The notes under the pieces: model-generated
Seen by the model: only the letters and a program-made list of their open reading frames with translations
The model's database searches: none
Told to the model about the DNA's origin: nothing
From: a virus
Direction: 5' to 3' (one strand)
DNA: 39,030 nucleotides
IMG/VR virus record: IMGVR_UViG_3300023172_000076
Span: 1 to 39,030 of that record
Shown: piece after piece, positions 4,635 to 36,067 of the stretch
Layout: every line of letters starts with the position of its first letter
How positions within the stretch are numbered: position 1 is the stretch's first letter
Position numbers and translations under genes: made by a program

Positions 4635-5029
4635 CCTTTTCCTCCAGTATTCATTTTTGATCTAATCAATTCAATCTGATCTTTAGTCAGAATTCGTAAC
4701 GCATCCCGTGCTTTGTCATCTGAATACTTGAAGTAGTCTTTGATGAGGTTTAGATCTTCGATCTTTTCCTTTCGCTGCCAGGGAGAGAAACGGCGTTTCT
4801 TTCTCAGACTATTTAGATAAAACGAATATTGAAGGTCCTTATCCAAGTGGTGCATACGATTCAATTCGTTTGCATACATCACAGTATCAAGATGCCCACT
4901 CACACACCGATTAACAATGTATGGTGGGTAGTTCTTGATCCAGTCTTCTCCTCGCTCACGCAGATCTTCTTTACTGAAGTTGATGCTGGTAAGATAATCA
5001 CCCAGCGGATACTGCTCTTTCTTGCTCAT
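4631..5029 (-). CDS. gp62: Sliding clamp loader small subunit gp62
   Basis: gp62 joins four copies of gp44 in the clamp loader that opens the gp45 ring and places it on DNA. The 132-residue product matches what I remember of cyanophage gp62 (YPLGDYL..INFSKE, PPYIVNRC.SGHLDTVM, RFSPW.KKE.IEDL, AL.ILT..Q), which is shorter than T4 gp62 (187 residues). Position directly before regA agrees with T4 order. Its start overlaps the end of the Dam-type methylase by 32 bases. In T4 gp62 directly follows gp44; here five genes separate them. Confidence 0.9.
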   Translation of the reverse strand: MSKKEQYPLGDYLTSINFSKEDLRERGEDWIKNYPPYIVNRCVSGHLDTVMYANELNRMHHLDKDLQYSFYLNSLRKKRRFSPWQRKEKIEDLNLIKDYFKYSDDKARDALRILTKDQIELIRSKMNTGGKG

Positions 5030-5873
5030 TAAAAAGTTGATCGAGGGGACTTTGGAAATAGTTTGTGACTAGAAGTTCTTTACGCTTGGATTGATCTAAG
5101 TTGTAAGAACCCGTGGATCGCATCGTATAAGTGAGATTCCACTCAGTCAAAGTATACTCGGAAAACATTTCACGGGTATTCTCATTTGAATTGTAGGTGA
5201 TCATCCAGTTAAAGGGAGATGCCTTGCAACACTCAGAAAAGTATTTGTGGTCAAATCCCTTATGCATCGTACCACCTTTGTTTCCATAAAGGAAGTCTTT
5301 GATGTCATATGGAGGATCTAGGAATACAAAAGTATCTTCGGTACCATCCTCCATCAAGAGAGTTGAGTAATCATCATTAGTAATATGCCAATGTTGAATG
5401 AGATCCTGAAACTCAACAAGTTTTTTCATCCCTCTCCTACTGAAGTTTGAGTTGGATGCTTGTGCGGAGAAGGACGAATTCTCAGTGAGTCCCGAGAAAG
5501 AGCATTTGTTTAGAACATAAAAGTAAACTGCCTGCATAAACTCATTAACATCAGCAATCTCTTGCTTGCATTTGAGAAACAGATCCTTAGCAGATTCTGG
5601 GTTATCGTTCTTGTCTTTCAATGCTAGAAGAGTCTCCGACATACGATCACCCTCTTCCTGCAATTGCACCCAGAAGTTGTACAAGTAATAGTATTTGTCA
5701 TTCACCCAGACTTCTGCCTCTGGGTTCTGCTTAGTAAAGGCAATCGCAACAGAACCCCCACCCAGAAATGGTTCGCGAAACTCACCAATCTGTTGGGGGA
5801 ATTGCTGTAGAAGATACTGTGCTGCGCGAGACTTGCCGCCAGGATAACGCAAAGGTGTCTTCAGAGATTTCAT
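4998..5873 (-). CDS. dam: DNA adenine N6-methyltransferase (Dam/D12 class)
   Basis: The enzyme moves a methyl group from S-adenosylmethionine to the N6 of adenine in DNA. The class signature is clear: TPLRYPGGKSR at residues 6-16, the AdoMet-binding EPFLGGGS at 34-41 and the catalytic DPPY at 186-189, in the order found in T4 and E. coli Dam. Length (291) is normal. The target is unknown but GATC is usual for the class. No cognate restriction enzyme is nearby, so protection from host restriction or strand marking is more likely. It lies inside the replication operon with a 4-base overlap with the gene before it. Confidence 0.92.
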   Translation of the reverse strand: MKSLKTPLRYPGGKSRAAQYLLQQFPQQIGEFREPFLGGGSVAIAFTKQNPEAEVWVNDKYYYLYNFWVQLQEEGDRMSETLLALKDKNDNPESAKDLFLKCKQEIADVNEFMQAVYFYVLNKCSFSGLTENSSFSAQASNSNFSRRGMKKLVEFQDLIQHWHITNDDYSTLLMEDGTEDTFVFLDPPYDIKDFLYGNKGGTMHKGFDHKYFSECCKASPFNWMITYNSNENTREMFSEYTLTEWNLTYTMRSTGSYNLDQSKRKELLVTNYFQSPLDQLFNEQERAVSAG

Positions 5874-28320: not shown

Positions 28321-31095
28321 TCAGTTGGTGACTTCAGCGAAACTAGAACCAGTTCTAGTAGCAGTGAATGTCAGAGTCACATAGTTAATCGAGCGGGTGG
28401 GCTTCACGAAGATCTCAGCGAAGAACTCACCACGGTCAATTGCCTCGGGCGGGTTGTTGCTGCTGTCGCAAACAACCAGGAAGTCCACGATTCCACGACG
28501 GGACTGGACAGAACGCAGGAAGGGTTCAACGATATTCTTGAACGATGCGCGAGTGAACTCGTCATTCAGTTCAAAGAGTTGAGTCTTAGCAGCGTTGCTG
28601 ATTGCATCTTCGAGAACCAGGAACAGGCGACGAACGTTGATACGGTCGAAAGCAGACTGGTAAGCGAGTGCAGTCTTATCACCGAACAGGACAATGCCCT
28701 GACCAGGGAATGCAACCACAGGGTTGATGCGTGCTGCATACAGACGATCGCGGTGATCCTTCAGAGGAGAGTAAGCGAGTTTGATCGCGTTACGCAGTTG
28801 ACCTCTGTTGAAACCAGCGGGAGAGTACCAAGCCTCAGAGTTAAGAGTGGTGCTCAGAGTCAGACCTGCAACATCAGCGTTACAAGCGATATAACGATAC
28901 TTGTCGTTATACTTATCATAGATGTACTTGTAGTTGTTATCGAACACAGCATAAGAAGTGCTGCTCAGTTGGTTGAAGAAGTCAACCGTACGGTTCACGA
29001 TAACGTTAACATCGCTCTGACCGATAACATCGTTACGGTTCGGAGAGATGAATGCCAAACAATCTTGGCGGGTTGCCGCAATGTCAATGATTTTTTGTGC
29101 CTTAGCGACGGTATCGCTAGTGTCTGCCATACCAGGACCCATCAGGATGTAATCAACATCAATGGTTTCCTTATCTGCCACCAGGTCATAACCGCCGAGA
29201 ATCTCGGAGCGTGCCAGGGTGTAACCGTCTGTACCACCTTGCAGGTGATAGAAAGCGGTGGAACCATTAGTTGTACCAATGATTTCGCGAGCAAGGTTGG
29301 TCTCATTGTTCTTGATTGCAGTATCCTGCTGGATCAAGTCGAAGGAACGAGACACACCAGAGGAACCCCACAGACCAGATGCGGCACCATCAACATCGTA
29401 GATTGCACCAGTTTCGTGAGAACCCCAGAACAGATAGGAAGAATCGTTCTTAATGACATCCTTATAGTACACGGTCTCACCTTGAGTACCACGTGCATCA
29501 GATGCCTTGGAAACGAACAGGAACTTCTCAAGGACAGAACCAGGAGTACCAGTCAGTTTTCCGTCGCCATCGAGAACGAGGATGTGCATCTGGTCGTTCT
29601 TACCACCACGATCATCAACCCAAGGAGATGTACCAGGACGGGGTGCAACAGATGCCCAACGCTGACCGCCACCAAAATAACGCTCGTCATACTCGGAGCG
29701 GACGGAAGACACGTTGATGTTGGGATTGCCACCAGCATTGTCATCAGACAGTGTGTAGTTAGCAGCATACTTTTCGGCACCCGATGCAGTCACGACGTGC
29801 AGTTGACGGTCGATACTAGAAACCGTTGCCTTGTCGCCAGTTCTAGCTCCACCAGTTTCTGCACTCCACAGAGCGATCACATCACCAACACTCAGAACGT
29901 CGGAGGACAGAGTGTAGTTAAAGTCGATCTCGATCTTACGGCTGATGGGATCATAAGCAACCACTTGACCTTGAACAGGGATAGACACACCAGCGGTGGT
30001 CTCTGCTCTCCAGTATTCTGCAGTTTGGAAATCACCAACCACAGATGCAGAATCAAGAGTTGCAACAACGGTGTAGCGATAGATGTGTGCGGTAGCGTTT
30101 GCTGCGCTGTAGGTCACCTGTGTTGAACTTGCAAATTCCCACTCAGCAGTGGAAGGTTGTGCCAAAGACAGGATCTGATCAGCACCTGCATCAGTTACAA
30201 CAACACGCAGGGAGTTGCCATAGATGCCAGGGTTGCGAGCACCCCACTTCCAGGAGTTAGATGCAGACTCAACGCTTGCTTCGTACTCTTCAAGAGACTT
30301 GATGATAGGAGCACTAACACCAGTTGCAGTTGTTTCGTTGATGTTGGTCTTGGAAACAGTCACCACCATTTTATCGACAGTCTGACCATCAGTTTGAGCA
30401 GCAGCGGTTGTTCCAAGAACACCACGCTCAACAGTCAGGTCGTTACCAGCGATAGAGGTAACACGCAGAATTTCATCAGAAATCTTGATGTAATCATTCA
30501 GTGTCACACCCAGGGTTGCGACAGAAGTCACAGTCAGGAGAGTATCACCAGCAGCAAGAGTACCGCCGTGATTCATTGTGGTGCTAGTACCAGCATCCTC
30601 AATCAGGGTGACTGCAGAACCAGCAGAGTGAGAGGTTGCTGCTGTTGCCAGTTGACCACGCTGAACTGTGAGGTCGTTACCAACAATTGCGGTGACTCTC
30701 AGAATCTCAGCGTCGATCTGCAGGTAATCGTTAACCGCAATGTCTGCAGCAGAAAGTACAGTCAGAGTGGTGTCAGAACCAGAGAAGGTTGTGACAGTTG
30801 TTTGTGCTGTATCGATAGCGTTCTTTAGGGAAGAACTGGTTGCACGGATAACCTTCAATGTACCACCGTACAGAAGGAATTGTGCAGCCGAGAACCAATA
30901 CTCGTAGTTGTAATCGTTAGGGCGACCAAACACTGCGAGAAGTTCCTTCTCGGAAGTGATGTCAACAATCTGGTTGACTGGACCTTTCTCAAAAGAACCG
31001 ACGATCACCGCGACATTATCAAGAGTTGCGTTTGCAACTGTAGTCAGATCCTTTTCAAGAACAACGACCCCTGGCGAAAGTTGGGTAGATGCCAT
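28321..31095 (-). CDS. gp18: Tail sheath protein gp18 with tandem repeat insert
   Basis: Contractile sheath around the tail tube. The N-terminal part (SPGVVVLEKDL...VAVIVGSFEKGPVNQ) and the C-terminal part (RDRLYAARINPVVAFPGQGIVLFGDKTA, FDRINVRRLFLVLEDAI) are conserved sheath regions. The protein is 924 residues against about 659 in T4. Two similar segments at about 108-165 and 183-245, sharing DY.....EILRVT.I.GNDLTV.RG.L.T, explain part of the extra length and probably form an outer domain. Late promoter-like TCTAAATA lies 39 bases upstream, and CAGGAG precedes the start. Confidence 0.95.
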   Translation of the reverse strand: MASTQLSPGVVVLEKDLTTVANATLDNVAVIVGSFEKGPVNQIVDITSEKELLAVFGRPNDYNYEYWFSAAQFLLYGGTLKVIRATSSSLKNAIDTAQTTVTTFSGSDTTLTVLSAADIAVNDYLQIDAEILRVTAIVGNDLTVQRGQLATAATSHSAGSAVTLIEDAGTSTTMNHGGTLAAGDTLLTVTSVATLGVTLNDYIKISDEILRVTSIAGNDLTVERGVLGTTAAAQTDGQTVDKMVVTVSKTNINETTATGVSAPIIKSLEEYEASVESASNSWKWGARNPGIYGNSLRVVVTDAGADQILSLAQPSTAEWEFASSTQVTYSAANATAHIYRYTVVATLDSASVVGDFQTAEYWRAETTAGVSIPVQGQVVAYDPISRKIEIDFNYTLSSDVLSVGDVIALWSAETGGARTGDKATVSSIDRQLHVVTASGAEKYAANYTLSDDNAGGNPNINVSSVRSEYDERYFGGGQRWASVAPRPGTSPWVDDRGGKNDQMHILVLDGDGKLTGTPGSVLEKFLFVSKASDARGTQGETVYYKDVIKNDSSYLFWGSHETGAIYDVDGAASGLWGSSGVSRSFDLIQQDTAIKNNETNLAREIIGTTNGSTAFYHLQGGTDGYTLARSEILGGYDLVADKETIDVDYILMGPGMADTSDTVAKAQKIIDIAATRQDCLAFISPNRNDVIGQSDVNVIVNRTVDFFNQLSSTSYAVFDNNYKYIYDKYNDKYRYIACNADVAGLTLSTTLNSEAWYSPAGFNRGQLRNAIKLAYSPLKDHRDRLYAARINPVVAFPGQGIVLFGDKTALAYQSAFDRINVRRLFLVLEDAISNAAKTQLFELNDEFTRASFKNIVEPFLRSVQSRRGIVDFLVVCDSSNNPPEAIDRGEFFAEIFVKPTRSINYVTLTFTATRTGSSFAEVTN
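30361..30774 (-). repeat. Tandem protein repeat in gp18
   Basis: Codes for two adjacent, similar segments of about 60 residues: DYLQIDAEILRVTAIVGNDL in the first and DYIKISDEILRVTSIAGNDL in the second, each followed by TV.RG.L.T. They lie between sheath core segments and look like a duplicated surface-exposed domain. Confidence 0.8.
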
Positions 31096-31181: not shown

Positions 31182-31412
31182 TTACCAATCTGGGTAGTCA
31201 TTCCCAAACCGTTTGCTATACTTTTTTCTATTCTTGGATATTCTTTTAATAGTGCATTGCTTACACTCATAAGAATATGCAGACACATTATTTCCCCTAT
31301 CCTTTCTAGTCTTATAGAAGTTATCTAATAGACTCATAGTTCTCAAACACTTGCGACATTGCCTGTCAACAAACAGCAGATGTTCAAGTTCAATCTGCTG
31401 GTCAAAGTCCAT
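31182..31412 (-). CDS. Small zinc-binding protein (76 aa) between gp17 and gp18
   Basis: Two cysteine pairs, CRKC near residues 19-22 and CKQC near 50-53, are set about 27 residues apart, with FYKTRKDRGN.VSAYSYEC between them. This is a zinc ribbon pattern common in small phage proteins of HNH-like or regulatory type, but no HNH catalytic residues are visible. The C-terminus is Lys/Arg-rich. It begins at the last base of gp17. DNA or RNA binding is likely; exact role unknown. Confidence 0.8.
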   Translation of the reverse strand: MDFDQQIELEHLLFVDRQCRKCLRTMSLLDNFYKTRKDRGNNVSAYSYECKQCTIKRISKNRKKYSKRFGNDYPDW

Positions 31413-33058: not shown

Positions 33059-33222
33059 TACGATTCCTCAGGAATTTTGGGATTTTTGAATGTCCCATAC
33101 TGATCTATGTAGTAGAGAAAGTTGTTAATAGATCTTTCAACACCCAGTGCTTGCTTTGCTGCTAACCAAAACTCATATTCATCTTGCAGGTCTTCACCCA
33201 ATTCAATACTAACGATTTTCAT
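33058..33222 (-). CDS. Small protein (54 aa) directly upstream of gp17
   Basis: Frame MKIVSIELGEDLQDEYEFWLAAKQ... ending NPKIPEES. The ATG at 33222 overlaps the nuclease gene stop as ATGA, and the TAA overlaps the gp17 ATG, so it is translated between them. It is helical, acidic and aromatic, with no coiled coil. It occupies the place where T4 has gp16, but it is much shorter and shows no similarity I can see. Function unknown. Confidence 0.7.
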   Translation of the reverse strand: MKIVSIELGEDLQDEYEFWLAAKQALGVERSINNFLYYIDQYGTFKNPKIPEES

Positions 33223-33680
33223 TCAATCAGTGTTCCGTGAGCACGACGAATTTCTCTAAGTTCTTCAAAGTCTTTTTGTTTTGTGCCACCATCGTATGCC
33301 CAAGCATATCCTTCGGTAATCATTTGCTCATTGAGGGACAACTCTGCGTCACCGATGTAGAGCCATCCGAGGAGTCTCCCGTATTTACCAACACCGCCCA
33401 CAAGCTCAGTCCTAACAGTAAGCTCATCGTCACCTGCGATAGCACCTTCCAGTTTCTCTTTGAGCCAGTTGGTTGCATCGTATCCGAGTGCTTTTTCTTC
33501 GTCGTCTCTGGTACGCTTTTCGGGCGTGTCCACGCCAGCAACTCTAACTCTTTCTTTTTTATATAAATCAAAACCGAGATCAATCGTGACATCGATCGTG
33601 TCTCCATCCAGCACTCTATCTATGCTGATCACTCGGAAGTTGTAACAACTCTTCCGACTCGGGGGTGTCATCGCTCCCAT
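33219..33680 (-). CDS. Thermonuclease-like (SNase domain) nuclease
   Basis: A 153-residue nuclease of the staphylococcal nuclease fold, which cuts DNA and RNA with calcium. The active-site set is complete by alignment with the known enzyme: LDGDT (D27), RVRVAGVDTPE (R46, D51, E54) and KYGRLLG (R102), followed by the expected LNEQMITEGYAWAY and ELREIRRAHGTLIE helices. No signal peptide is visible, so it probably acts in the host cytoplasm, perhaps on host DNA, or is packaged. The first 65 bases overlap the previous gene. Confidence 0.9.
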   Translation of the reverse strand: MGAMTPPSRKSCYNFRVISIDRVLDGDTIDVTIDLGFDLYKKERVRVAGVDTPEKRTRDDEEKALGYDATNWLKEKLEGAIAGDDELTVRTELVGGVGKYGRLLGWLYIGDAELSLNEQMITEGYAWAYDGGTKQKDFEELREIRRAHGTLIE

Positions 33681-33792
33681 CTTCTTCTAGTTCCTTAAAG
33701 GATAGTCTAAGTATATATACGACACAATAGAGCGTAAATACTAGTCCACAACAGAGGAGTATGATTACAGACCAGACAGGTTCTTGTGTCAT
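33616..33792 (-). CDS. Single-helix membrane protein (58 aa)
   Basis: MTQEPVWSVIILLCCGLVFT... has one membrane helix at about residues 7-29, then a basic stop-transfer point (LRLSFK) and an acidic tail of Glu, Asp and Ser. Similar short proteins with the MTQEP.WS opening are known to me from other cyanophages. The ATG overlaps the previous stop as ATGA, and its end overlaps the nuclease gene by 65 bases. Function unknown. Confidence 0.7.
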   Translation of the reverse strand: MTQEPVWSVIILLCCGLVFTLYCVVYILRLSFKELEEDGSDDTPESEELLQLPSDQHR

Positions 33793-33971
33793 TTGTCCTT
33801 GAATAATTCTTCAATACGTTTTCTGGTATCATCAAGTTTTGCTTGTTCTCTTTCACAATGCCTATAACCTCTCTTTCCCTGAAATATCATCGTGCCTTGA
33901 TAAAACATCGTGGCAGCAAATACTAACAGAAGAACGATACCAATTATCTCAGGTAGGTTTTCGGTGGACAT
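33789..33971 (-). CDS. Single-helix membrane protein (60 aa)
   Basis: I use the ATG at 33971 (MSTENLPEIIGIVLLLVFAATMFYQG) rather than a TTG four codons upstream. One membrane helix at about residues 8-28 is followed by a basic, helical, coiled-coil-like tail ending RKRIEELFKDK. It overlaps both neighbours by a few bases. Function unknown. Confidence 0.7.
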   Translation of the reverse strand: MSTENLPEIIGIVLLLVFAATMFYQGTMIFQGKRGYRHCEREQAKLDDTRKRIEELFKDK

Positions 33972-34074
33972 ATGCGATACCAATGATAGGAACCATCACC
34001 AGCAAAAAACATAATATACCAAGAGTGTAAGGATTATTTAGAGTCCAGTGTGCGATACTACCGATTTCTTTCAT
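33949..34074 (-). CDS. Single-helix membrane protein (41 aa)
   Basis: MKEIGSIAHWTLNNPYTLGI followed by a hydrophobic helix (LCFLLVMVPIIGIAYV) and a basic end (HRKPT). The W-T-L-N-N-P-Y opening is one I remember from other cyanophage micro-proteins. It overlaps the next gene by 23 bases and the previous gene by 17. A TCTAAATA sequence at 34035-34042 lies inside it and may be accidental. Confidence 0.65.
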   Translation of the reverse strand: MKEIGSIAHWTLNNPYTLGILCFLLVMVPIIGIAYVHRKPT

Positions 34075-34279
34075 CATTCCACAACAAATTGAAATATCTA
34101 TCTACTTGACGTAGACAGTCTAATGGGGCAACCTCATCAGTCTTTGCCCATTCTAAACAAAAAAACTGCATCTGCTCAGTAACTTTGGGAACGCCAAAAA
34201 TTCTAGCAAATGCAGATGTAGCAAAATGGTACCGCTGTCTAATGCGCGGTTCCATTTCCCTTATAATCGTCGGATTCAT
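34058..34279 (-). CDS. Hypothetical soluble protein (73 aa)
   Basis: A helical protein (MNPTIIREMEPRIRQRYHFA...) with a C-terminal VDRYFNLLWNDERNR. Aromatic and charged residues alternate, with no membrane helix. The surrounding genes are membrane micro-proteins. No family recognised. Overlaps the next gene by 17 bases and the previous by 41. Confidence 0.7.
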   Translation of the reverse strand: MNPTIIREMEPRIRQRYHFATSAFARIFGVPKVTEQMQFFCLEWAKTDEVAPLDCLRQVDRYFNLLWNDERNR

Positions 34280-34370
34280 AATAGGATCCTTTCTTTGAAC
34301 CGAAGTAGAGTGTGGTCAGTACAAATGGAATTGCAATAATTGCAAGTGCTTTTCCCAATAGATGTTCCAT
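34239..34370 (-). CDS. Single-helix membrane protein (43 aa)
   Basis: I use the ATG at 34370 (MEHLLGKALAIIAIPFVLTT), because the gene before it ends on that base and the longer frame has no reason to start earlier. A membrane helix at about residues 5-25 is followed by FGSKKGSYYESDDYKGN, a polar, Tyr/Gly-rich tail. Function unknown. Confidence 0.65.
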   Translation of the reverse strand: MEHLLGKALAIIAIPFVLTTLYFGSKKGSYYESDDYKGNGTAH

Positions 34371-34507
34371 TATTGGTCTATCCCAAGTTCCCTTAAGTAA
34401 TCGATCCACCATTGGGGATCTTTTTGCATTCTCCACTTTGGAACCTCCAAACCTTTCTCAGAATAATACTCAAAGAGAGCATCATCTATAATCTGTGCGA
34501 CTTCCAT
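34370..34507 (-). CDS. Small soluble protein (45 aa)
   Basis: Start ATG at 34507 (MEVAQIIDDALFEYYSEKGL) has a GAGG site just upstream (GAGGACGAGGAAT); longer frames would run through the previous gene. The product is helical and Trp-rich near the end (WRMQKDPQWWIDYLRELG). No motif recognised. Confidence 0.65.
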   Translation of the reverse strand: MEVAQIIDDALFEYYSEKGLEVPKWRMQKDPQWWIDYLRELGIDQ

Positions 34508-34688
34508 ATTCCTCGTCCTCTTCATCAACGTCTTCATATGCGTTTGCCACATAAGGTCCGTGTGGTTTGAGTGATTCTTCTCGGACATACTCGGATTCGG
34601 CACTGACTGCTGACAACCAGACAGCAAGTTTCATTACTATGTAGATGGTTGCTAATGGGAGAAAACACAACAATAACTTAAACGTCAT
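34482..34688 (-). CDS. Single-helix membrane protein with acidic tail (68 aa)
   Basis: Three ATGs lie in a row; GGGAGG six bases upstream favours the third, at 34688 (MTFKLLLCFLPLATIYIVMK). A hydrophobic N-terminal region of about 35 residues could be one helix or a signal anchor. The tail is acidic with repeated Glu/Asp (VDEEDEEYG). Function unknown. Confidence 0.65.
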   Translation of the reverse strand: MTFKLLLCFLPLATIYIVMKLAVWLSAVSAESEYVREESLKPHGPYVANAYEDVDEEDEEYGSRTDYR

Positions 34689-34815
34689 CATCATCCTCCC
34701 AATAACCATCAAAAGGTTCTTGGCAAAGTTCGCGATGCTTTATAAATTGCATTGCTTGCCTCAATAACTTTTCGTCCTCATCTGTAAAATGTTCTTTGTC
34801 TTCGTTTTCATTCAT
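34678..34815 (-). CDS. Small acidic soluble protein (45 aa)
   Basis: MNENEDKEHFTDEDEKLLRQ... ending WEDDDDV. Very acidic with one helical, basic stretch in the middle (RQAMQFIKHRELC). The ATG overlaps the previous stop as ATGA, and its end overlaps the next gene's start region. No family recognised. Confidence 0.6.
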   Translation of the reverse strand: MNENEDKEHFTDEDEKLLRQAMQFIKHRELCQEPFDGYWEDDDDV

Positions 34816-34982
34816 TGACCTACCCGTTCGATAATTCGCAACATACCATCAACATAACCTGCCAATGCAATACACCCTAATGTTAGACTGATCAATGCGG
34901 CATTTCTGTTGTGTTTTTTGATTGCCTTGTCTATAAGACTTTGACATTCTTGTCTTGTTAGCAATTCGTTGGGATTTTCCAT
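34812..34982 (-). CDS. Single-helix membrane protein (56 aa)
   Basis: MENPNELLTRQECQSLIDKA is a polar helix; residues about 28-46 (AALISLTLGCIALAGYVDG) form a membrane helix, and the C-terminus is short. The start shares TAATG with the previous stop. Function unknown. Confidence 0.65.
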   Translation of the reverse strand: MENPNELLTRQECQSLIDKAIKKHNRNAALISLTLGCIALAGYVDGMLRIIERVGQ

Positions 34983-35116
34983 TAGGGGTTGTGATTTTTA
35001 TTTGATTTAATTTGATTGTATCCCCAGACTGCTAGGGTGCCGATACCTAGACCAGCAATACAGCAAAGAAACATATGAATAAGGTGTTCAAAAGTTGAGT
35101 GATCAGCGTGGTTCAT
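34982..35116 (-). CDS. Single-helix membrane protein (44 aa)
   Basis: MNHADHSTFEHLIHMF starts with a His-rich polar part, followed by a small-residue helix (LCCIAGLGIGTLAVWGY) and a Lys/Asn tail. The ATG overlaps the stop of the gene before it as ATGA. The His residues could bind a metal or cofactor in a host membrane, but that is speculation. Confidence 0.65.
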   Translation of the reverse strand: MNHADHSTFEHLIHMFLCCIAGLGIGTLAVWGYNQIKSNKNHNP

Positions 35117-35235
35117 CCGAAATACATTACAGAAAGTGTGAAGACAACAAAGATGATGACGGTGAACATCATCAATCCTACACCTGCCCAGGCAACCCAG
35201 GCAGGCATAGGTTCATAGTTATGATTATGAGACAC
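35113..35235 (-). CDS. Single-helix membrane protein (40 aa), GTG start
   Basis: The only suitable start is a GTG at 35235 that overlaps the end of petE. The product, from residue 2, reads SHNHNYEPMPAWVAWAGVGL, then a hydrophobic helix (MMFTVIIFVVFTLSVMYF). The N-terminus is again His/Asn-rich. It is directly coupled to plastocyanin translation, which hints at a shared site in the thylakoid or cytoplasmic membrane. Confidence 0.6.
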   Translation of the reverse strand: MSHNHNYEPMPAWVAWAGVGLMMFTVIIFVVFTLSVMYFG

Positions 35236-35548
35236 GAATATGCCCAATCATTCCCGCACCTTTGTGAGGATCGCACCAAAAGGTATACTCACCAGGAACA
35301 TCAAAGGAAACGTCAAAGGATTCTCCAGGAGAAAATGCCAGACCTGTATGGCTGAGCTCGGGATGACCATCAACAACGACATTGTGAGGAGGTAGCACAT
35401 TATTGATAAAATGGATGCTATCACCAGCGTTGATTTCAATTTCTGAGGGTTCAAAGACGAGACCTCCGTTATACCCCATTTGTACATCTACTGCCCAAAC
35501 GGGAACTGCAAAAAGAAATGTGGTGAGAAGTGCAAAAATGAATTGCAT
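35225..35548 (-). CDS. petE: Plastocyanin (PetE)
   Basis: A small copper protein that carries electrons from cytochrome b6f to photosystem I in the thylakoid lumen. Of 107 residues, 1-19 are a signal peptide (cut after VWA), leaving an 88-residue mature domain, shorter than the usual 97-99. The copper ligands are all present: H55 (PPHNVV), C92, H95 and M100 in FWCDPHKGAGM. Phages carry petE to keep host electron flow, and so energy, running during infection. It sits in the run of membrane micro-proteins with no clear promoter of its own. Confidence 0.95.
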   Translation of the reverse strand: MQFIFALLTTFLFAVPVWAVDVQMGYNGGLVFEPSEIEINAGDSIHFINNVLPPHNVVVDGHPELSHTGLAFSPGESFDVSFDVPGEYTFWCDPHKGAGMIGHIRVS

Positions 35549-35595
35549 TTGATGAGTATTTTCAACTACTCTATCTAGAATAGAAATAAGATATG

Positions 35596-35859
35596 TTACA
35601 AATTATTGTCAGCATCTGCTGGCATATCTTTACCCAATTCTTCTAAACGTTGTTCCCAGGTAACACCACCATCCATACCACGCTTGGGATTGATGCACTG
35701 GAAGTTGCCAAGTTTATTGCACACTAATCCAGCAAGATCTAATTCATTTCCTTTCTTGCCTGTACCAGACCAGTAGTGCTCTCCATTGATCCATAAAGCA
35801 CCACACTTCGGACACTCTGCACGAGTAACCGATAGGTCGGACATCTCCTTGTCAGTCAT
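35596..35859 (-). CDS. Hypothetical protein with one CPKC pair (87 aa)
   Basis: Residues about 16-19 are CPKC, followed by GALWINGEHYWSGTG; two further cysteines at about 47 and 55 (LVCNKLG, FQCINP) complete a possible zinc ribbon. No enzyme motif is visible. ATG 35859 has GGAG about 7 bases upstream. It overlaps the membrane protein before it by 8 bases and precedes petE by 47 bases. Role unknown. Confidence 0.75.
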   Translation of the reverse strand: MTDKEMSDLSVTRAECPKCGALWINGEHYWSGTGKKGNELDLAGLVCNKLGNFQCINPKRGMDGGVTWEQRLEELGKDMPADADNNL

Positions 35860-36067
35860 CTCCTAACTCCTTAAAAATACTGGAAAAATCGGATGTGGGA
35901 AGACCAAGTTTACGCTCTAGGTCTCTTTTCATACGCCACATCTGAAACTTGATTCCTAGGTATCTAATTTGGAGATCGAGATATGCAAATACTCGCATAG
36001 TTCCTTCCATCCCAGCATACCAAATCATACAGAGAAGGATTACAACGCACAGATAGAATGCTACCAT
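35852..36067 (-). CDS. Single-helix membrane protein (71 aa)
   Basis: I use the ATG at 36067 (MVAFYLCVVILLCMIWYAG), not the TTG three codons upstream. The first 20 residues are a membrane helix; the rest is an amphipathic, basic helix region (KFQMWRMKRDLERKLG) and a short acidic end. It is the first gene of the run and lies behind a possible promoter at 36089. Function unknown. Confidence 0.7.
   Translation of the reverse strand: MVAFYLCVVILLCMIWYAGMEGTMRVFAYLDLQIRYLGIKFQMWRMKRDLERKLGLPTSDFSSIFKELGDD

Follow-up and report, generated by a model that had tools for sequence, protein, structure and literature searches.

A string of membrane microprotein genes around petE in a T4-like cyanophage: a mosaic of small cassettes with a predicted NdhP

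The virus record IMGVR_UViG_3300023172_000076 of IMG/VR, a 39 kb sequence from a T4-like cyanophage (39,030 nucleotides, all of which is referred to here as the window), contains on the minus strand, between positions 33616 and 36067, a dense string of small genes that surrounds petE, the gene for plastocyanin. Phage structural genes adjoin the string, with portal, protease, scaffold, sheath, tube and terminase genes beside it in the window, and its flanks are the gene of a 254 amino acid (aa) protein of phrog_8198 and the SNase-gp17 genes. A preliminary description of this DNA, made from the sequence alone, counted 14 genes in these 2.45 kb, nine of them encoding single-helix membrane proteins, with nearly all starts overlapping the preceding stops, and the count, sizes and overlaps are confirmed: nine of the 14 products are single-helix membrane proteins by hydropathy, and 12 of the 13 junctions overlap, the only gap being that between the zinc ribbon gene and petE. 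Thirteen genes match a PHROG family, with petE as the sole named one. The microproteins have no match above cut-off in Pfam, NCBIfam or PADLOC, the one PADLOC match being the SNase domain. Promoter-like sites in the region are at chance level, and the count of MTAAATA is not clearly above chance.

Gene order was compared over ~310 loci from viral contigs and named phages, searched with family profiles; the sample is biased in that the most similar loci were retrieved and many contigs are related. Read along the minus strand, the string begins with a 71 aa protein of phrog_1181 that has one N-terminal helix (35852..36067). In 25 of 30 loci its gene directly precedes the zinc ribbon gene, which here encodes an 87 aa phrog_484 protein with four invariant cysteines (35596..35859), the structure model of which was poor (predicted local distance difference test (pLDDT) score 64) and was not used. 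Plastocyanin (petE, phrog_515, 35225..35548), 107 aa with a signal peptide, carries a copper-binding domain (Pfam Copper-bind, 71.8 bits, cut-off 21.2) with His, Cys, His and Met ligands (PPHN...WCDPHKGAGM in the sequence). Two single-helix proteins come next: m7358 (phrog_7358, 40 aa, 35113..35235), which has the motif [M/V]SHNHNYEPMPxW and starts within the 3' end of petE, and m7010 (phrog_7010, 44 aa, 34982..35116), in the alignment of which an H-x2-H-M-x2-C-C cluster at the helix start is invariant and the C-terminus reads NHNP. They are followed by m1096 (phrog_1096, 56 aa, one helix, 34812..34982) and by o9 (34678..34815), a 45 aa acidic soluble orphan that has no PHROG family and occurs in only a few close loci, nearly always before m2832. 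The latter (phrog_2832, ~68–75 aa, one helix and an acidic tail, 34482..34709) has the soluble o2075 (phrog_2075, 72 aa, 34370..34588) as its partner, the next gene in 41 of 41 loci. Then come m2173 (phrog_2173, 43 aa, 34239..34370); the soluble o593 (phrog_593, 73 aa, 34058..34279); m1184 (phrog_1184, 42 aa, one helix, 33949..34077), found 22 times after o593 and 23 times after zwf; m1953 (phrog_1953, 60 aa, one helix and a charged tail, 33789..33971), the usual partner of m1096; and m814 (phrog_814, 58 aa, one helix, 33616..33792), directly before the SNase gene in 111 of 127 loci. The SNase-type endonuclease (T4-GC228, phrog_452, 33219..33680, also on the minus strand; Pfam SNase, 49.9 bits, cut-off 21) is the cassette edge on the gp17 side, and its highly conserved N-terminus shares 65 bp (33616–33680) with the C-terminus of m814 in a different frame. 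Starts were revised from alignments for m7358 (GTG 35235), m1953 (ATG 33971), o2075 (ATG 34588) and m2173 (ATG 34370); that of m2832 probably lies near 34688.

The string is real and conserved. A helix is found in nine of the 13 string genes other than petE, compared with 11 of 84 (13%) open reading frames of 35–85 aa outside the region in S-RIM4 (binomial P ~5e-6, with a background from this one control genome and simple calling of open reading frames), and elsewhere in that genome at most two such helix frames fall within 2.45 kb. Median ratios of non-synonymous to synonymous substitution (dN/dS) over related loci, approximate given overlapping frames and saturation, range from 0.07 to 0.46, with purifying selection in all 14 families tested (SNase included, o9 left out): 0.07 for SNase, 0.11 for m7010 and 0.13 for m7358, the latter two close to petE (0.10), 0.25 for m2832, 0.35 for o593 and 0.46 for m814. 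The preliminary description had named neutral rates and random presence and absence across related phages as grounds for abandoning its reading; neutral drift does not fit the values obtained, and the presence of the genes, although variable across phages, is structured.

On the basis of sequence comparison we identify m2173, classed as ‘unknown’ in PHROG, as NdhP, the single-helix subunit of NDH-1L, which provides a function for one of the tiny cyanophage cassette genes. The protein of the window alone matches NdhP in PDB with an E-value of 1.7e-5 (the third match is plant NDF6 of the chloroplast NDH), and a profile of phage and host sequences matches the solved NdhP with an E-value of 1.7e-14. 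A search of host genomes of the WH7803 family with the phage profile detected homologues in 223 of 251, nearly always in single copy; the WH7803 copy has the C-terminus YYNTDKYDGNGTAH. Like cyanobacterial NdhP (PDB 6khi chain P, 6hum chain P; ~43 aa, same family by sequence search), m2173 is of the expected size (~40–45 aa) and has one membrane helix and the C-terminal tail YY..D.Y.GNG.AH, within the shared pattern FG...G-x-YY-x-x-D-x-Y-x-GNG-x-AH; unlike it, m2173 is phage-borne, its gene either standing between gnd and zwf or preceding o593, and its assembly into NDH-1L is putative. NdhP is exclusive to NDH-1L, is essential for its stability and touches NdhD and NdhF (PMC4131877, PMC6992706). 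Viral ndhP has already been reported from marine metagenomes (cited in PMC3877843 and PMC10452541), and so have ndhI and ndhD, likewise NDH-1 subunit genes carried by cyanophages; what differs here is the placement of ndhP in a defined cassette, its mostly unannotated state in isolates, and the measured gene order and selection.

The gene is present in 14 of 19 reference phage genomes, and comparison of its coordinates with the annotation tables reveals no coding sequence in its frame in nine of these 14 (S-RSM4, Syn19, Syn1, Syn10, S-SM2, S-CAM8, ACG-2014d, P-RSM1 and S-SKS1). Annotation thus misses phage ndhP in most isolates checked, in many cases owing to a zwf start that is set too early. 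Where m2173 and the annotated start of zwf overlap, dN/dS is 0.21 in the m2173 frame (0.21–0.25 for the family) versus 1.3 in the zwf-extension frame; therefore, m2173 is the real gene here, and the annotated zwf frames are extended too far at their starts. In many phages m2173 lies between gnd and zwf, an arrangement that joins pentose phosphate genes of the phage and the gene of an NDH-1 subunit in a single block. In P-RSM1 this gnd-ndhP-zwf block occupies another site, between gp23 and gp3. In an S-CAM8 locus (4691–5167), the annotated gnd is truncated to ~158 aa, and ndhP, o593 and m1184 are open downstream of it.

The preliminary description took the string for one functional unit. Instead, small cassettes make up a mosaic in which they change place, shed members and come together again, the internal order being kept through the reshuffling, and the gene overlaps suggest coupled translation within each cassette. 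The recurrent groups are petE-m7358-m7010, m2832-o2075, (gnd-)m2173-(zwf or o593)-m1184 and m814-SNase, located between gp16 and gp17, beside psbA, in tRNA-rich areas, between gp23 and gp3 or beside sugar genes. The order m7358 then m7010 is observed in 30 of 36 cases and gnd then m2173 in 27 of 33 gnd loci, and the gene after m2173 is zwf (27) or o593 (26), never both, with m1184 mostly next; m1096 and m1953, neighbours in 21 loci, stand apart in this window. A strict exclusion of PTOX by m7358 and m7010 seemed to follow from a first sample (0 of 69 with both) and was dropped, because m7010 occurs near PTOX in L191, L193, L195 and L240 and S-RSM4 has petE-m7358-PTOX. Three contigs (L284, L296, L310; 3.5–6.5 kb), with no petE, SNase or gp17 nearby, show a Dps-like gene and a small zinc-ribbon gene, then m1096, m1953 or gnd, ndhP, o593, and then nucleotide-sugar genes.

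The region is a microprotein-rich variant, at the gp16-gp17 site of the g15-g18 hyperplastic region (Millard et al., 2009, as cited in PMC2984593), of the endonuclease-flanked mobile cassette with petE, PTOX, gnd and zwf described at varied locations in cyanomyoviruses (Sullivan et al., 2010; PMC3037559). As in that cassette, petE lies towards one end and the T4-GC228 SNase endonuclease at the other, and the location varies and includes the gp17 and psbA regions; in contrast to it, PTOX, gnd and zwf are absent from the window locus, and membrane microproteins fill the space. We nonetheless file the locus as a variant because PMC3037559, the passages of which that were consulted mention no ndhP gene in the cassette, also reports degraded or partial cassettes, with degraded zwf copies at the position of o593. 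With the hyperplastic region the string shares its place upstream of g17 and the presence of host-derived genes among structural genes; the gene content is different, the description of that region stressing metabolic genes and not membrane microproteins. With the hyperplastic region, the flanked cassette and viral ndhP all in the literature, the preliminary statement that no such system is described is not supported; a literature search outside which most subscription journals lay turned up no publication that treats the microproteins together.

The position of o593, exactly that of zwf in other phages, could mean that o593 and its neighbours are decaying remnants of lost gnd and zwf, degraded zwf copies being reported there in PMC3037559. 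This is highly improbable: the comparison of the o593 and Zwf profiles aligns only eight columns, at the overlapped start, so that o593 is not homologous to Zwf and was rejected as a zwf remnant, and its dN/dS as well as a confident AlphaFold2 model of a four-helix soluble protein (pLDDT 91) likewise weigh against decay. This fold has no trusted structural match (best Foldseek E-value 1.7, best VIA-align Z 4.5).

The petE-m7358 overlap is identical in 32 of 32 such junctions. A scan that took m7010 and not petE as its anchor gave 63 scorable loci; in 57 of these petE lies upstream at a distance below 800 bp, 15 times in the gp17 context, 15 in that of psbA and 27 in others. Given the C-terminal position of the positive charges, the His/Met/Cys cluster of m7010 is predicted to be on the lumenal side, and such a ligand set would suit copper. 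Directly before m7010, two loci (L110, 4276–4368; L241, 5916–6014) encode an extra single-helix microprotein of ~30 aa (MNMEHLLIFGFAFLLTATMEATWPIKKPKL in L110), which in L110 stands between m7358 and m7010.

A hyperplastic site might simply gather small genes that are useful separately, such as anti-host, exclusion, membrane-stress or lysis-tuning peptides, and the nearness of petE would then reflect a shared insertion site and a recombinogenic SNase region. We regard this as possible, though the less probable course. It would account for the free reshuffling of the cassettes, for the occurrence of m1096 and m2173 at other genome sites, for the link of petE gain and loss here to recombination (PMC6722890), and for the weak converse association, petE being found in 401 phage records (isolates) and m7010 in 47; it accounts poorly for the constant partners and spacing of petE-m7358-m7010 and gnd-m2173-zwf in changing surroundings, and for the match of m2173 to NdhP.

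The best explanation overall, which we hold with moderate confidence, is a microprotein-rich mobile cassette whose products act in thylakoid electron transport, and the string, which carries plastocyanin, the predicted NdhP and eight other single-helix families, probably helps the virus to steer host electron flow. We favor this explanation because m2173 matches solved NdhP, which NDH-1L needs (PMC4131877, PMC6992706), because it adjoins gnd and moves with gnd and zwf in P-RSM1, because the petE-m7358-m7010 arrangement is kept in the gp17, psbA and other contexts, because purifying selection acts on every family tested, and because a mobile photosynthesis cassette is already known (PMC3037559). 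A link to electron transport has support in the case of NdhP and PetE and is plausible in that of m7358 and m7010. The cassette proteins would be inserted in the host thylakoid membrane. By holding NDH-1L together there, phage NdhP would let ferredoxin electrons into the plastoquinone pool, joined in phages with gnd and zwf by reducing power that the pentose phosphate pathway supplies; plastocyanin would carry the electrons onward, and cyclic flow and ATP would be favored over carbon fixation. With the pentose phosphate genes and ndhP in a single block, an infection-driven shift of the host to NDH-1-dependent cyclic flow becomes directly testable. More speculatively, m7358 and m7010 could serve PetE as a membrane tether or in copper loading, for which the His/Met/Cys cluster would be used; the other microproteins could likewise be small subunits or assembly factors. 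That phage-specific single-helix subunits together with NdhP and PetE rebuild thylakoid electron-transport complexes during infection, the m7358/m7010 pair tethering or copper-loading PetE, is a doubtful extension. The preliminary description had suggested action on the thylakoid or the envelope; NdhP as a subunit of a thylakoid complex, and the association of the genes with photosynthesis genes in several contexts, agree with the former, and nothing was found that would point to the envelope.

Several observations weigh against the electron-transport explanation. Functions are identified for NdhP and PetE only. Several cassettes have no petE or photosynthesis gene nearby (L284–L296, by Dps-like and sugar genes). 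A strict partnership with PetE is not required, given that petE is missing from six of the 63 loci with m7358/m7010, and also from S-RIM50, where m7358 is retained. The link between petE and m7010 is partly one of shared descent, because the petE-m7010 label forms clusters on the PetE tree, with 12 changes compared with 39 in shuffles.

To our knowledge, the lysis genes of cyanomyoviruses are not well known, and small membrane proteins in overlapping genes, one of which (m7358) marginally matches a spanin family of PHROG (E 0.084), might include holins, antiholins or spanins. We consider this very unlikely, given that no lysis family is matched significantly, no neighboring endolysin is recognized, and most families are missing from many phages, m814 being the only nearly universal microprotein (18 of 18 cyanophage reference genomes searched).

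The conserved membrane microproteins form a short list of candidate further subunits. In PDB, m7358, m7010, m1184, m1096, m1953 and m2832 have no significant match to solved small photosynthetic subunits, NdhQ included. Homologues of m1096 are found in 30 of the 251 host-family genomes, so that some hosts have this gene too, and in 14 of 19 phages, often elsewhere in the genome. In three host genomes of 1.6–1.7 Mb (L412, L415, L432), the m1096 homologue has small unknown open reading frames around it and a 2-Cys peroxiredoxin gene at a distance of at most ~2 kb. The same 251 genomes yielded no homologue of m7010 or o593, an empty search that is weak evidence, and marginal or isolated matches only for m7358, m1184 and m1953.

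Elsewhere in the window, a 76 aa endonuclease VII-type gene (phrog_4723, 31182–31412) lies between gp17 and gp18. The gp18 tail sheath protein (28321–31095) has 924 aa, several annotated relatives having ~750 aa, and a large insert is suggested because the phrog_23 match is spread along this length.

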